Origin: Nocardia nova SH22a | Lineage (GTDB): Bacteria; Actinomycetota; Actinomycetes; Mycobacteriales; Mycobacteriaceae | NCBI RefSeq assembly: GCF_000523235.1 | Contig: NZ_CP006850.1 | Coordinates: 7,006,001-7,070,000 of the forward strand | Direction of reading: 5' to 3' | Length of the DNA stretch: 64,000 nt | The notes under the pieces: generated by a model | Databases searched by the model: none | What the model was told of the DNA's origin: nothing | The model's input: only the letters and a program-made list of their open reading frames with translations | Made by a program: the position numbers and the translations under genes | Part shown: piece by piece, positions 28,065 through 60,381 of the stretch | Position numbering within the stretch: the stretch's first letter is position 1 | Layout: each line of letters starts with the position of its first letter

Positions 28065-28328
28065 GCAGTCCTCACGACGCGCGGTGGCCGCCGGGACCAC
28101 CGCCACGTCGGCGGCACGGACGTTCCGCGAATTCCCCACGCACACTCATCGTCTCGGCCGTGTGCCGCGTTACCCTGTCTCCCTCAGCGGTTTCCGCCGT
28201 GCGCGGCATTCGGGCACACGAAAATACTTCAACGCGTGGGATTTTGGACCGCACGAAGATTTCGACCCGAACAGACGGGTACCGCGCGGCTCGATCGGAG
28301 CCGGACGGGGTTCACCTCGCGGGTGTAT

Positions 28329-29486: not shown

Positions 29487-30176
29487 ATGTTCCGACCTCC
29501 CTATCTGGCCCGGGTCGCCGCTGGGGCCGCCGTGTACGCACTCGAGGAAACCCGCCGGTTACCCAGTGCGGCAATACATTTGCCTATCACCGCGATCAGT
29601 CAGCTGCTCCAGACCTCGATGCATCTGCAGCAGTTCATCACCAGCCTCGCGCTCAAGGGCGACGAGGTTTTCGACCGGCTGGGCAATCGCCCGGTGGAAC
29701 AGCCCGAATGGGCCACCTTCGACGAGGACCTCGACCAGGAGACGTCGTTCGACAGCGCCGACTTCTCGTCCCGGCTCAGCCGATTCGACCTGTTCCAGGA
29801 ATCCGACGGCCCCGCCACCGACGAAGCCTCCGCCTCGGTGACGACGATCACGGCGGCCACCACCAATGGCTATGCCCCATCTCACAGCACCGAACCGGAC
29901 GCCGAGGAAACCTCCCACTCGGCCGAACCCGAGGCTCCCGCGGACCCACCGGCCCCCGAACCCGCCCCGCAACCCGAACGTCGCGGCGCCATCGAACCGG
30001 AGGTCGCGACCCGTTACGACTACGCCAACATGACGCTGGCCCAGCTGCGCGCCCGGCTGCGCATGCTCAGCGTGGCGGATCTCACCGCACTGCTGGAGTA
30101 CGAGAAGCAGACCTTCGACCGGGCGCCGTTCGTGACCATGCTGACGAACCGGATCGCCACCGTGCAGGCCAAGTGA
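29487..30176 (+). CDS. Lipid-droplet-associated protein
   Basis: A 229-residue protein of the actinobacterial lipid-droplet-associated type. Residues 1-75 are amphipathic and Ala/Leu rich ([37 protein letters not shown]), suited to coating triacylglycerol droplets. A Pro/Glu-rich linker follows, then a conserved C-terminal helix pair ([19 protein letters not shown] ... [20 protein letters not shown]). It starts at ATG 29487. Its stop overlaps the xseA GTG (GTGA), giving the conserved order also seen in M. tuberculosis. Confidence 0.8.
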
Positions 30177-41833: not shown

Positions 41834-43132
41834 TCAGCCGAGCAGTTTCCAGTCCTCGAGGCCCTCGTAGAGCGGGAAGTCCTGAGCCAGCTTGGACACC
41901 CGGGCGCGCAGCGAGTCCAGGTCGGCGTTGCCTGCCAGCGCGGTGGCGATGATGTCGGCGACCTCGGTGAACTCGACGTCACCGAACCCGCGAGTGGCCA
42001 GCGCGGCGGTGCCGATCCGCAGACCCGAGGTGACCATCGGCGGGCGCGGGTCGAACGGAACAGCGTTGCGGTTCACCGTGATTCCGACCTCGTGCAACAG
42101 ATCCTCACCCTGCTGACCATCCATCTGCGAGTTACGCAGATCCACCAGCACCAGATGCACATCCGTGCCGCCGGTGAGCACCGTGACACCGTTACCGGCC
42201 ACATCGGCGCCGGTCAGCCGCTCGGCCAGGATCTTCGCCCCCGACAGGGTGCGCTCCTGACGCTGCTTGAACTCCTCGGTCCCCGCGATCTTGAACGCGG
42301 CGGCCTTGGCCGCGATCACATGCATCAGCGGACCACCCTGCTGGCCCGGGAACACCGAGCTGTTCAGCTTCTTCGCGAACTCCTGCTTGGCCAGGATCAC
42401 ACCCGAACGCGGACCACCCAGGGTCTTGTGCACGGTCGAGGACACCACATCCGCATGCGGCACCGGCGAGGGATGCAGACCCGCGGCGACCAGACCGGCG
42501 AAGTGCGCCATATCCACCCACAGGTACGCGCCCACCTCGTCGGCGATCTCACGGAACGCCGCGAAATCCAGATGCCGCGGATACGCCGACCACCCCGCCA
42601 CGATCACCTTCGGCCGCACCTCGAGCGCCTGCTTGCGCAGCGCCTCCATATCGACGCGGTGGTCCTCCTTGCTCACCCCGTACGCGTGGACCTCGTAGAG
42701 CTTGCCGGAGAAGTTCAAACGCATGCCATGGGTGAGGTGACCACCGTGGGCCAGGTCCAGGCCCAGCAGTTTCTCGCCCGGGTTCATCAACGACATCAGC
42801 ACCGCGGCATTGGCCTGGGCGCCCGAATGTGGTTGCACGTTGGCGAATTCGGCGCCGAAGAGTTCCTTGACCCGGTTGCGTGCCAGGTCCTCGACCACGT
42901 CCACGTGCTCGCACCCACCGTAGTAGCGGCGACCCGGGTAGCCCTCGGCGTACTTGTTGGTCAGCACACTGCCCTGGGCCTGCAGCACCGCGCGCGGCAC
43001 GAAATTCTCCGACGCGATCATCTCGAGGGTGTCGCGCTCACGGGCGAGCTCGCCCGCCATCGCGGCAGCCAACTCCGGATCGAGCTCGGCAAGCGACTGG
43101 GTATTGACAGATGCGGCGGTCGTCTGGGTCAC
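41834..43132 (-). CDS. glyA: Serine hydroxymethyltransferase
   Basis: A 432-residue PLP enzyme that converts serine and tetrahydrofolate to glycine and 5,10-methylene-[37 protein letters not shown] and the PLP-lysine motif [16 protein letters not shown] are intact. GTG 43132 fits the family start (MTQTTAAS...). TAGACT seven bases before it (43140-43145 on this strand) is a likely -10 of a leaderless transcript. Two long direct repeats lie further upstream, shared with the peptide gene promoter region. Confidence 0.97.
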
Positions 43133-43154: not shown

Positions 43155-43257
43155 TGCGACGGGCCTGGAGGAGGCAGCCTGCGTAACCCCGCAAGGCCCC
43201 GCGGGCGCCGCCATCGGGCACAGCGGCGGCTGCGACGGGCCTGAAGGAGGCAGCCTG
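43155..43257. repeat. 27-bp direct repeat pair upstream of glyA
   Basis: Copies at 43155-43181 and 43231-43257 begin TGCGACGGGCCTG and end GAGGCAGCCTG, differing at one base (G versus A at position 14) and offset by 76 bases. Each ends in an AGGC-A-GCCT palindrome. They lie between glyA and the first short peptide gene, near the -35 region of glyA. Confidence 0.8.
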
Positions 43258-43289: not shown

Positions 43290-43317
43290 TTGTCCGGTCG
43301 CAAGAATCCCGTAACAT
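43290..43317 (+). promoter_or_regulatory. Possible promoter of the peptide genes
   Basis: TTGTCC at 43290-43295 and TAACAT at 43312-43317 with 16 bases between resemble a sigma-70-type promoter pointing to the short ORF at 43382. The expected start near 43324 would leave a leader of about 60 bases. Confidence 0.35.
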
Positions 43318-43381
43318 TCGCCGGGCTGTCAACGACTATGACGGCGTTATCGAAATCATTCGAGCAAACTCAGGGGTTCAC

Positions 43382-43501
43382 ATGCTGTATTTCACCGCGG
43401 GTACCGGCAACTCGATTACCGATTTGCTTTTCGCCCTCCTGAAGTCTTCCTGCTCCATCTCCGCTGGTGGCGCGGCCGGCTGCTCCGGCTGGGGCGCATA
43501 G
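43382..43501 (+). CDS. Short hydrophobic Cys-pair peptide 1, 39 aa
   Basis: A 39-residue peptide of no family known to me. It starts MLYFTAGTGNSITDLLFALL, a hydrophobic/amphipathic helix, then KSSCSISAGGAAGC (Cys24 and Cys34, C-x9-C) and ends SGWGA. AGGGG lies five bases before ATG 43382. The Gly/Ser/Cys-rich second half resembles a ribosomally made modified-peptide core, but no modifying enzyme is encoded within the window. The general plan (helix, Cys, [IL][ST], Cys) matches peptides 2 and 3 further downstream, so the three probably belong together. An antisense frame covers it but is less convincing. Confidence 0.6.
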   Translation: MLYFTAGTGNSITDLLFALLKSSCSISAGGAAGCSGWGA

Positions 43502-43535
43502 TTCCGATTCCGCCTGGCGCGGAGGTGATCCGGAC

Positions 43536-43560
43536 GGGTTCGCGACTCGTGCGCGAACCC
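43536..43560 (+). terminator. Hairpin after peptide 1
   Basis: A perfect nine-pair stem GGGTTCGCG/CGCGAACCC with a seven-base loop begins 34 bases after the stop of peptide 1. There is no T-run. It could terminate or attenuate transcription before peptides 2 and 3. Confidence 0.5.
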
Positions 43561-43692
43561 GGGTCGGCTCCCCCGGTGAAATACTCCCGAACAGATCGAT
43601 AGCCGCGAACCGGTCATTGCGATTCGCGCCACTTCGGTAATCCCGCTCTCCCGATTCCCGTATCCCGCGTTGCTAACCGATGCGCCGCTCGT

Positions 43693-43737
43693 ACCGATAT
43701 TCCCGATATCGGTCCACAAGTCCACCGGTACCGATAT
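43693..43737. promoter_or_regulatory. Palindrome and repeated half-site before peptide 2
   Basis: ACCGATAT-tcccg-ATATCGGT (43693-43713) is a perfect 8+8 inverted repeat. Its left arm with flanking bases, GTACCGATAT, recurs at 43728-43737, 20 bases before ATG 43757. Three copies of one half-site just upstream of a gene suggest a regulator-binding region; an RNA hairpin is also possible. Confidence 0.5.
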
Positions 43738-43756
43738 GTGATACGAGGAGAAGCGC

Positions 43757-43864
43757 ATGACACCGACCTTCGCACCCCCCAGCTCTCCGCTCGAGGCGCT
43801 GATGATGTGGCTGCGCAACAGCCTCTGCACGATTTCGGCCGACGTCCCCTGCATCTACACCTGA
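43757..43864 (+). CDS. Short Cys-pair peptide 2 (LMMW family), 35 aa
   Basis: A 35-residue peptide starting MTPTFAPPSSPLEALMMWLR, followed by NSLCTISADVPC (Cys24, Cys32; C-x7-C) and IYT. A proline-rich lead precedes an amphipathic helix centred on LMMW. GAGGAG lies exactly six bases before ATG 43757, as in peptide 3, so translation is well supported. It is a clear paralogue of peptide 3: PT[FY], PL[EQ]ALMMW and the Cys spacing are shared. There is no signal peptide in the usual sense. Possible roles include a secreted disulfide or modified peptide, a pheromone or a membrane-active peptide; none is shown. Confidence 0.75.
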   Translation: MTPTFAPPSSPLEALMMWLRNSLCTISADVPCIYT

Positions 43865-43894
43865 TCCGGGACATCCACTCGCGAGGAGTACACC

Positions 43895-44002
43895 GTGCAT
43901 CCCACCTATGTACCTGCCAACCCGCTGCAAGCACTGATGATGTGGTGGAGCCACGTCATGTGCGAATTGACCTCCGGCGGTCAGTGCATGATGCCGATGT
44001 GA
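43895..44002 (+). CDS. Short Cys-pair peptide 3 (LMMW family), 35 aa
   Basis: A 35-residue paralogue of peptide 2, thirty bases downstream of it. It starts MHPTYVPANPLQALMMWWSH, then VMCELTSGGQC (Cys23, Cys31; C-x7-C) and ends MMPM. GTG 43895 has GAGGAG six bases upstream, the same arrangement as peptide 2, although the start codon differs. The methionine content (seven including the start) is striking. The gene stops four bases before the stop of the convergent DUF885 gene, leaving no room for a terminator between them. Confidence 0.75.
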   Translation: MHPTYVPANPLQALMMWWSHVMCELTSGGQCMMPM

Positions 44003-44006
44003 CCGC

Positions 44007-45203
44007 TCACATTCGCCGGACGGCGGCCGGAGTGAGTGGTTCGTCGAGCAGTCTGCCGAACCGCGCCACCCGGTCGCCGGTATCGGCGGCGCGGTCCAGC
44101 CAGCCGCCCAGCAGCCGATATCCCTCGACGTAGGTGCTGATATACGCCCGCCACAGCGGTGAGGACAGGAATCGCAGCGACTGCCGCGCGCGTTCGGGGG
44201 TGCTCAGACTCCAGCGCTGCAGAAATCCCGCCACCTCGTCGGCATCGCGGCCGCGGTCGTGCAGGAGCAGCGCCGCATCCTGGCGCACCCCGAGCAGTTT
44301 CGCCGAGGCGATCGAAAGCCGTTGTGCGCGTTCGCCGTCGAAGCGCAGGCCGAGATCGGCGTAGATCTCCTGCGCCCAGATCCCCCAGTCCGGCCCGATG
44401 ATCGACTTCAGGGCCAGATCGGCCAGGCCCTCCGCCATCAGGCACTGCGGCGTGTTGACCACGAACAGCGTCTGCTCGTCCTGTCCGGCGGCGACCAGTC
44501 CGGCCTCCTTGCGGCAGTGCTCGGTGTGATGACCCGGATATGCCTCGTGCGCGATCAGTGCGGGCAGGTTCGCCATATGTTGTTTGAGGTCGGAATTGAT
44601 CGCCACCCGCGACCGGTAGTTGCCGAGGTAGTAATTGAATCCCGACCACGGCTTGTCGCCGACGATCTCGTATTCCACCTGCTCGTGATCCGGCAGCGGA
44701 TAGCGTTCGCGCACCCGTTCGCGCAGTGCGCCGGAGAATGCCCGCACGCATTCGGTGAGACGTTCGGGGGGAATCTCGTCGGCCTTGCGATGGGCGGTCA
44801 TGCGGTCGAGCAGTGGGCCGTCACCGGCCAGGACCTCGTCCAGTTGACGGTGTGCGTCCTGGTAGTCGTCGATATCGCCGAGTTCGATATCGACATCGAA
44901 GTAGGCCCGCACCTCTTCCACGAAGGAGATGTCGTCACCGGCGAACTTGCGGCCCGAGCATTCCAGCGCCAGCAGATGCGCGGCCAGGAATTCGGTCCGC
45001 TGCTCGTCCAGGCCCGCCTCCGGCAGTTCCTTGTGCAATGCCGCCGCCCGGTCGGCGAGTTCGCGCGGCTGTGGCGCGGGCGCCGATTCCACCGCCCGGC
45101 GCAGTGCCGGATCTCCGGTGTAGGCGTCGACGAATCCGGGTTCCAAACGGTCGAATGCCAGTCCCAGACGCAGATATTCGGTGACGAACGGGTGCGCGTG
45201 CAT
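44007..45203 (-). CDS. DUF885-family putative metallopeptidase
   Basis: A 398-residue protein of the DUF885 family, thought to be zinc-dependent peptidases related to the carboxypeptidase Taq/M32 group. The hallmark is LIAHEAYPGHHTEHCRKEAG, a HExxxxxH-type zinc motif, with a further Glu in CLMAEGLADLAL as a probable third ligand. It is cytosolic (no signal). ATG 45203 (MHAHPFVTEYLR) is preferred; ATG 45281 would add 26 residues of low likeness. It is convergent with the peptide genes, four bases away, and divergent from coaA. Confidence 0.85.
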   Translation of the reverse strand: MHAHPFVTEYLRLGLAFDRLEPGFVDAYTGDPALRRAVESAPAPQPRELADRAAALHKELPEAGLDEQRTEFLAAHLLALECSGRKFAGDDISFVEEVRAYFDVDIELGDIDDYQDAHRQLDEVLAGDGPLLDRMTAHRKADEIPPERLTECVRAFSGALRERVRERYPLPDHEQVEYEIVGDKPWSGFNYYLGNYRSRVAINSDLKQHMANLPALIAHEAYPGHHTEHCRKEAGLVAAGQDEQTLFVVNTPQCLMAEGLADLALKSIIGPDWGIWAQEIYADLGLRFDGERAQRLSIASAKLLGVRQDAALLLHDRGRDADEVAGFLQRWSLSTPERARQSLRFLSSPLWRAYISTYVEGYRLLGGWLDRAADTGDRVARFGRLLDEPLTPAAVRRM

Positions 45204-45428
45204 GACATCCGACGATAGTCGCTTCCCGTTCGCGGCCTCCGGCGCCGGACGAAACCTCCGCGACGGCGAGAGAAATGTCACCGAGGTTACTGGCCGGTAA
45301 TATCACCCCGTGTTCGACGGGTCGTTGACCACGAGGACAATTCGGCTATGCGAGGACTGTCCAGCAGAGTTCACCGCGCCGGGCACGGCGCCGCCTCGAC
45401 GGCGACACCGGATCAGGAGTGTGAGTAG

Positions 45429-59397: not shown

Positions 59398-60381
59398 TCA
59401 GGCCCCGATGCCGCCCGCCAGCACGGGCCAGGAATCGTGCAGATCCTGTTCGAACAGCCCCCAGGTGTGCGCGCCGCGTGGCCGTTCGATGTAGACGGCG
59501 GGCACCCCGGCCTGCGTCAATCGACCGGCGAAGGCCGAGGTGCACACGGCAGCGAATGCCTCGACCGGCGGGAATGCCCAGCCGCGGTCGATCGCGCCGG
59601 GAATCCCCGACGCCGCGGACAGGTAGATGGCCTTGCCCCCGAGAGCACCGGCTCGCGCGAACGCGTCGTGCACCGGCCAGGCGCCGCCCCCGGGCGGGCC
59701 CCACATGTTGCCCGGATTCCCGCCGCCGCGGATCACCTGCGCACTGACCATCGCGATGCCCGCCGGATCGTTGCCCCAGGGACAGCCGCTGTAGGAGGCG
59801 ACCGCGTCGTAGCGCTGCGGCGCCTGAATCGCCAGATCCACCGCGGACCCACCGCTCATCGACACCCCGGCCACGGCGTTGCGCCCGGTGGTACCGAGTT
59901 GGGCGTCGATCACTCCGGGCAGTTCCTGGGTGAGATAGGTCTGCCAGCGATTGCGGCCCACCGCCGGATCGTCGCTGAGCCAATCGGTGTACATGCTGTA
60001 GGCGCCGCCGACCGGCATCACCACATTGACGTGCTTGTCGGCGAAGAAGGCGCGCACATCGGTGTCGTCCCACCAGGAGATGTTGTCCACACCGCCGCCG
60101 ATGCCGCTGAGCAGGTACAGCGTGGGCGCCGGACCGCCGCCCGCCGCCTGGATGACGCGATTGGTGATCACCCGGTCCATCGACGGCGAGTACACATCCA
60201 TCCGGACCGCCGCCGGGCCCAGCGGTTGCCGGTCCACCATGTGGGCCGCGGGCTCGGCCTCCGCCGGTACGGGCGAGACCACCGACATGACAGCCGCCAC
60301 CACGACCGCGGAGAACAGTGCGATCCGATATCTCATATCGGCGAGCCGAGACGAAGCCGTCATGATCATGTGAGCACCCAT
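59398..60381 (-). CDS. Secreted esterase of antigen-85-like fold
   Basis: A 327-residue exported alpha/beta-hydrolase of the Ag85/esterase-D family. After a charged N-terminus, the signal peptide span is IALFSAVVVAAVMSVV and cleavage is likely near AEAEP. PTLYLLSGIGGGVDNISWW and the nucleophile elbow AVAGVSMSGGSAVDLA match mycolyltransferase-type proteins; the terminal ERPRGAHTWGLFEQDLH supplies the catalytic His. It may transfer mycolates or be a plain envelope esterase; the canonical C-terminal Ag85 features cannot be confirmed. ATG 60381 is used; ATG 60369 and 60336 are also possible. Confidence 0.85.
   Translation of the reverse strand: MGAHMIMTASSRLADMRYRIALFSAVVVAAVMSVVSPVPAEAEPAAHMVDRQPLGPAAVRMDVYSPSMDRVITNRVIQAAGGGPAPTLYLLSGIGGGVDNISWWDDTDVRAFFADKHVNVVMPVGGAYSMYTDWLSDDPAVGRNRWQTYLTQELPGVIDAQLGTTGRNAVAGVSMSGGSAVDLAIQAPQRYDAVASYSGCPWGNDPAGIAMVSAQVIRGGGNPGNMWGPPGGGAWPVHDAFARAGALGGKAIYLSAASGIPGAIDRGWAFPPVEAFAAVCTSAFAGRLTQAGVPAVYIERPRGAHTWGLFEQDLHDSWPVLAGGIGA

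Follow-up and report, generated by a model that had tools for sequence, protein, structure and literature searches.

Between glyA and the next gene in Nocardia nova SH22a lie three very short open reading frames in tandem, and the locus raises the question whether ORFs of this size are genes at all and, if so, in which process their products could take part. The window, i.e., the whole stretch of DNA analysed here, comprises 64,000 bp of a genome that consists of one contig of 8.35 Mb.

Three short ORFs in the glyA gap

The initial annotation described ORFs of 39, 35 and 35 codons, and these are present on the + strand at 43382..43501 (peptide 1, 39 aa), 43757..43864 (peptide 2, 35 aa) and 43895..44002 (peptide 3, 35 aa, with a GTG start). 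The elements shared by peptides 2 and 3 in that description (PT[FY]xP, PL[EQ]ALMMW and C-x7-C) were found in the translations, and the corresponding spacing in peptide 1 is C-x9-C. Furthermore, the proposed ribosome binding sites are in place on the + strand: AGGGG five bases before the ATG of peptide 1 (43372..43376; AGGGG is also present in group B1, see below), and GAGGAG six bases before the starts of peptide 2 (43745..43750) and peptide 3 (43883..43888). GAGGAG-N6-ATG is weak evidence by itself, as the 8.35 Mb contain 106 copies vs 36 of the reversed pattern; the reality of the ORFs rests on homology.

The divergent neighbour (41834..43132, minus strand, start at 43132) is glyA, as annotated; its product, serine hydroxymethyltransferase, matches PF00464 with an E-value of 3.1e-153. 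The convergent neighbour (44007..45281, minus strand) had been labelled DUF885. A gene is located there, and a DUF885-like gene was found in 145 of the 148 genomes of the genus, but the label itself is weak (Pfam DUF885, E = 0.91, 9.5 bits at a cut-off of 32.4). A 27-bp direct repeat with one mismatch (43155-43181 and 43231-43257) is located between glyA and peptide 1. As the peptide 3 gene lies 30 bp downstream of the peptide 2 gene and has no promoter motif of its own, the two are probably cotranscribed. A stable hairpin with the outer pair at 43986-44056 (-39.4 kcal/mol, z = -4.22; 0 of 200 shuffles equally stable) spans the peptide 3 stop codon as well as the 3' end of the convergent gene, and possibly serves as a terminator shared by both genes.

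Two related peptide families and their distribution

A search started from peptide 3 over 148 genomes of the genus yielded clear relatives; the set of 90 peptides collected includes the low-scoring G012 and G106, which were retained by hand. Peptides 2 and 3 belong to family A (consensus xxxPxxVPxNPxEALLxxLSxLxCxLSSGGxCxVxx; no variation at two Pro, one Leu or either Cys among 20 sequences) and peptide 1 to family B (MLxFIAGxGIxDxLxALLKSxCTxSSGGAxCxxWGA; both Cys invariant in 21 sequences). The profiles of the two families align with an hhalign probability of 95.5 and an E-value of 1.5e-8, which bears out the suggestion that peptide 1 is a distant relative of the other two. Their common plan consists of an N-terminus without a Sec signal, a hydrophobic helix, Cys, a Ser/Gly-rich loop, Cys and a short tail. 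All 90 peptides contain exactly two Cys, spaced by 4-10 residues (7 residues in 42 peptides); with the assigned starts, their lengths are 29-51 aa, and 88 of them have no Lys or Arg before the helix (a crude criterion for a Sec-like N-terminus). AF2 places the helix at residues 11-27, the mean pLDDT values of 73.4 for peptide 2 and 65.0 for peptide 1 indicating modest confidence; the hydrophobicity H of the helix is 0.28-0.42 at a moment of 0.32-0.48.

The codon patterns agree with the earlier view that the peptides are under selection. Pooled Nei-Gojobori dN/dS values are well below 1 in all five groups (0.136 in V, 0.242 in B1, 0.271 in B2, 0.385 in M and 0.203 in L), and start, ribosome binding site and stop are conserved as well. 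In group V, the variable columns are distributed over the three codon positions as 8, 4 and 19 of 36 codons. Among the 90 genes, 69 have a ribosome binding site match of five or more nucleotides, 13 one of four and eight none. These comparisons thus give good support to three genuine micropeptide genes from a single superfamily, and we infer that all three are translated.

The family also appears to be undescribed, as had been proposed. Neither Pfam nor NCBIfam has a model matching the three peptides at E-values up to 10, and we found no literature on these peptides in open-licence PMC text. A protein profile search (E ≤ 0.01) returned 55 proteins named "hypothetical" or "uncharacterized" protein, and wherever the source name shown includes an organism, it is Nocardia. 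A tblastn search with one family A peptide against plasmid and phage collections gave no match at an E-value of 0.1.

The initial annotation had made its case dependent on homologous ORFs at the same locus in related genomes, and such ORFs are common. The intergenic site between glyA and the DUF885-like gene was examined in 126 genomes (100 fetched, 25 from earlier loci, and the window), with only + strand matches kept as members (the best minus-strand match listed had a domain E-value of 0.98). At least 79 of the 126 genomes encode a member there, on the strand opposite to both neighbours; the counts for this site are lower bounds, since in 19 genomes the stretch stopped short of glyA. One copy is present in 70 of these 79 genomes, two in seven and three in two; family A was found in 54, family B in 29 and both in four. 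A further 16 members were read at unlinked sites, where the neighbours are, e.g., a P450 (PF00067) and a protein kinase (PF00069) at L099, a fatty-acid-desaturase-family (alkB-like) gene at L108, or a membrane protein without Pfam match at L101 and L104. The glyA site was examined in nine of the 16 genomes with unlinked copies: eight have no member there (one of them, G004, seen in part), and G021 has a weak relative. Inspection of the translated neighbours at four kinds of locus revealed no shared partner enzyme or exporter. Some family A copies look degraded, as G038, G071 and G146 have no start and that of G109 (L053) is split between frames; we take this to be a sign of gene loss.

Outside the genus, L052 in genus g15 is the one convincing A-like ORF among the candidates scored (at most 25 per genome) in 301 genomes from 31 genera; it has no GTAAC or CTAAC within the 160 bp scanned. 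In 20 genomes of other genera, no member was found next to the DUF885-like gene, whether or not this gene adjoins glyA there.

The promoter motif and its probable sigma factor

In upstream alignments, CGTAAC is located some 70 bp ahead of the start codon in groups of both families. A strict motif, GTAAC[A/G]-N16/17-CG[A/G][T/C], precedes 49 of the 90 peptide genes and none of 367 control genes (script-predicted genes in the window and 20 loci), and a broad version precedes 54 peptide genes and three controls; the Fisher values of 3e-41 and 5e-42 for the strict and broad comparison are overstated, because the upstream sequences are related. GTAAC alone occurs in 59 of the 90 upstream regions, whereas shuffled sequences gave a mean of 6.9 and a maximum of 12. 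Furthermore, of 48 distinct sites, 12 have CG[AG][TC] at offset 17 from GTAAC and 30 at offset 18, 42 in total, with about one expected per offset; other offsets score as well (12 at offset 14, five each at 9 and 26), and these peaks are ascribed to the relatedness of the sequences. All 16 unlinked copies scanned have related sites as well: four strict ones, six of GTAAC-17-CGCT (by reading), five of CTAAC-17-CGAT and, at L015, CTGAC-17-CGAT. In the eight genes without a ribosome binding site, GTAAC lies 18-51 nt upstream of the assigned start, as expected of leaderless mRNAs. An ECF-type promoter before the family genes is thus well supported in most lineages. The broad motif is absent from 36 of the 90 genes, which include the majority of group B2 and the whole of group M (four genes); the upstream regions of six group B2 genomes (G127, G073, G130, G011, G074, G024) have no GTAAC and have in common a block with CTGGC...GCCAG-like arms.

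In the window, the putative promoter of peptide 1 (P1, 43311..43336, + strand) consists of the -35 element GTAAC (43311-43315), 17 nt and the -10 element CGAC (43333-43336); it is ECF-type and sigma-D-like, and is conserved in group B1 of family B. The corresponding element read upstream of peptides 2 and 3 (P2, 43673..43698, + strand) is a variant of the same type, with CTAAC (43673-43677), 17 nt and CGAT (43695-43698), i.e., the form found before five of the 16 unlinked members.

Which sigma factor could read this motif? The Corynebacterium glutamicum sigma-D promoter has GTAAC[A/G] with GAT, and its regulon comprises envelope and mycolate genes according to PMC6338062; porH, cmt1 and ProtX are listed among its members in PMC11175481. 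The -35 element GTAAC[A/G] recurs in the strict motif of 49 of the 90 Nocardia peptide genes, whereas the -10 element is CGAT, CGGT or CGAC rather than GAT alone, with a spacer of 17 or 18 nt from GTAAC. Both promoters of the window deviate from the C. glutamicum consensus, P1 in the -10 element (CGAC) and P2 in the -35 element (CTAAC), and CGGT is the -10 element of many family A promoters. RsdA is present in 30 of 30 genomes of the genus, and 27 of 30 have GTAACGCC-N14-CGAT at the start of sigD. The three genomes without this usual sigD site (L234, L236 and L239 in G001, G025 and G027) all carry a B2-type peptide; the B2-type genomes G024, G011 and G028 retain the site.

In the genome of the window, GTAACR-N16/17-CGAT occurs at 30 sites vs seven for the reversed pattern, and a version with CCGRT shows no excess (14 vs 15 reversed). 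The genes behind the GTAACR-N16/17-CGAT sites include sigD and genes for FAS-I-type (PF22690), FabD-like acyltransferase (PF00698) and mycoloyltransferase-type esterase (PF00756) proteins, among others; several of the sites are intragenic and probably noise. Two more such sites are present in the window itself, 28148-28173 and 29991-30017 (-) (L322, L323). Among the mycoloyltransferase-type genes, two of the 20 scanned have GTAACG-17-CGA[TC] (22 were found; L282 and L283 were left out). Taken together, sigma-D, the sigma factor of envelope stress, is the likely reader of the motif, and other ECF factors could read these promoters as well.

The search for the sigma-D-type motif in the genome of the window also led to a further peptide, designated here family C. 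Its ORF (L329/L330, G000:C1:8264821-8264922) encodes 34 aa without Cys, MLTNVLNVLLAAWGGVSAGSSGYQIPPGTLPFGS, and its ATG, preceded by GGAGG, lies 57 bp past the sigma-D-type site (L329). Family C is present in 122 of the 148 genomes of the genus (E < 1e-6) and, with a natural-variant query (E ≤ 0.01), in 91 of 301 genomes from 11 of 31 genera. Of 30 genus loci fetched, one had no ORF; 28 of the other 29 have GTAAC 73-117 bp upstream, the exception being L341, and CGRY follows at offset 17 or 18 in 22 of the 29, with CGAT at offset 16 in six more (by reading). In a further set scanned at offsets 16-18, the motif precedes 12 of 25 family C genes (9/12 in the genus, 3/3 in g16 and 0/10 in g23, where the ten genes are near-identical). 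The motif has thus led to a conserved micropeptide, although it is not universal before family C.

A proposed role in the mycolate envelope

The short length, the absence of a Sec-like start, the helix, the Ser/Gly-rich loop, the conserved gap and the ECF-type promoter together point to peptides of the mycolate membrane made under envelope stress. Specifically, we propose sigma-D-type envelope-stress micropeptides which would be exported without a Sec signal, closed by a disulfide and active in or on the mycolate membrane, a proposal for which we consider the chances about even. Disturbance of the mycolate envelope would free sigma-D from RsdA, and the peptides would then be made and, lacking a Sec signal, pass out of the cytoplasm in the manner of PorA, PorH and ProtX. 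Outside the cytoplasm, the two Cys would close the Ser/Gly-rich loop by a disulfide, and the amphipathic helix would insert into the mycomembrane or lie on it. Ser residues of the loop may be O-mycoloylated as an anchor; note that mycoloylation falls on flexible Ser/Gly-rich stretches without a strict consensus according to PMC11066868. The peptides would thereby patch the mycomembrane or tune its permeability, perhaps as oligomeric channels. Location, disulfide, mycoloylation and pore formation are all predictions from the features listed above. Families A and B could be the fast-diversifying part of a broader group of sigma-D micropeptides, to which the Cys-less family C would belong as well. 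We also put forward, tentatively and as rather doubtful in its entirety, a sigma-D-induced mycomembrane micropeptide layer of the Nocardia group, in which the disulfide-looped families A and B and the deeply conserved family C of this and ten other genera, all without Sec signal, would have mycolate-acylated Ser/Gly loops and act as stress-responsive channels or patches of an origin independent of PorA/PorH.

This envelope-stress reading is stronger than the alternatives of a RiPP, a pheromone or a type I toxin. As RiPP precursors, the peptides would have the helix as leader and the C-(S/T/G-rich)-C segment as core, in which an enzyme encoded elsewhere would form a crosslink, e.g., a thioether of the labionin or lanthionine kind. 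A length of about 35 aa and a hydrophobic helix would fit a precursor, and 83 of the 90 peptides have Ser or Thr after the first Cys, within a Ser/Thr-rich loop. The precursors of class III lanthipeptides are likewise short and carry Ser, Thr and Cys towards the C-terminal end, and their ring motif S/T-x2-S/T-x3-C is conserved. In the Nocardia peptides, however, [ST]xx[ST]xxxC (counted with exactly this spacing) is present in no more than 20 of 90, both Cys are equally invariant, and inspection recognised no modifying enzyme in the 19-kb neighbourhoods; we judge a RiPP improbable. A linked synthetase was likewise not recognised on inspection of the translated neighbours at the four locus types. 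A secreted disulfide peptide acting between cells (pheromone or bacteriocin-like) would be consistent with the fast divergence between groups around a fixed Cys pair and with the several copies in some genomes, but 88 of the 90 peptides have no basic N-terminus of the Sec kind, and no exporter, receptor or immunity gene was recognisable by inspection around the loci; we judge it to be of similarly low probability. The initial list of possible roles is thereby narrowed: membrane-active or envelope peptides are favoured by the sigma-D-type promoter, whereas RiPPs and secreted pheromones have lost ground on the N-termini, the ring motif and the absence of a shared partner recognisable by inspection around the loci.

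The peptides could also be small inner-membrane proteins or hydrophobic peptides of the type I toxin kind, unrelated to the mycomembrane. Length, hydrophobic helix (11-27 in AF2) and tandem copies would agree with this, but the ECF-type promoter is of the kind common to envelope genes and the Cys pair is invariant, so that we regard it as unlikely. Chance ORFs or a non-coding element were rejected and are scarcely credible: short ORFs are frequent in GC-rich DNA (68 with 25 aa or more within 5.5 kb), but dN/dS indicates purifying selection, start, ribosome binding site and stop are conserved, homologues occur at the locus as well as at unrelated loci, and all Rfam matches are sub-threshold. 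An attenuator leader peptide was rejected as well, as the next gene is convergent here and the neighbours differ at other loci.

The closest parallel to the envelope-stress reading is provided by PorA, PorH and ProtX of Corynebacterium, which are tiny and helical and have no identifiable Sec signal according to PMC12632848. According to PMC5944148, their genes are short ORFs arranged in tandem within a conserved gap and differing in number, as is the case here, and porH and ProtX are assigned to the sigma-D regulon in PMC11175481, in line with the sigma-D-like promoter of the Nocardia peptides. However, no profile relation to PorA/PorH was found in Pfam or NCBIfam (three peptides, E up to 10, profiles only), the gap is groEL2/ppk2 in Corynebacterium and glyA/DUF885-like (or another locus) in Nocardia, and the invariant Cys pair is a feature of the Nocardia peptides, the parts of the cited sources on PorA/PorH/ProtX reporting no Cys loop. 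The Nocardia peptides may thus work like PorA/PorH, by analogy, and are not filed as members. MspA-type porins of Nocardia and Rhodococcus (PMC9233653) reside in the mycomembrane of this bacterial group; with about 200-270 aa and a Sec signal, they are unrelated to the peptides.

Overall, the family is real and undescribed and the regulatory clue is strong and specific, whereas the proposed function is moderately supported. How micro-proteins without a signal reach the mycolate outer membrane is an open question according to PMC12632848, and the promoter-linked micropeptide set across the genus provides a testable list of candidates. Short ORFs behind sigma-D-type promoters, which have already yielded family C, offer a way to more micropeptides. 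The window also encodes a mycoloyltransferase-type esterase at 59398-60381 on the minus strand (PF00756, E = 8.1e-27).
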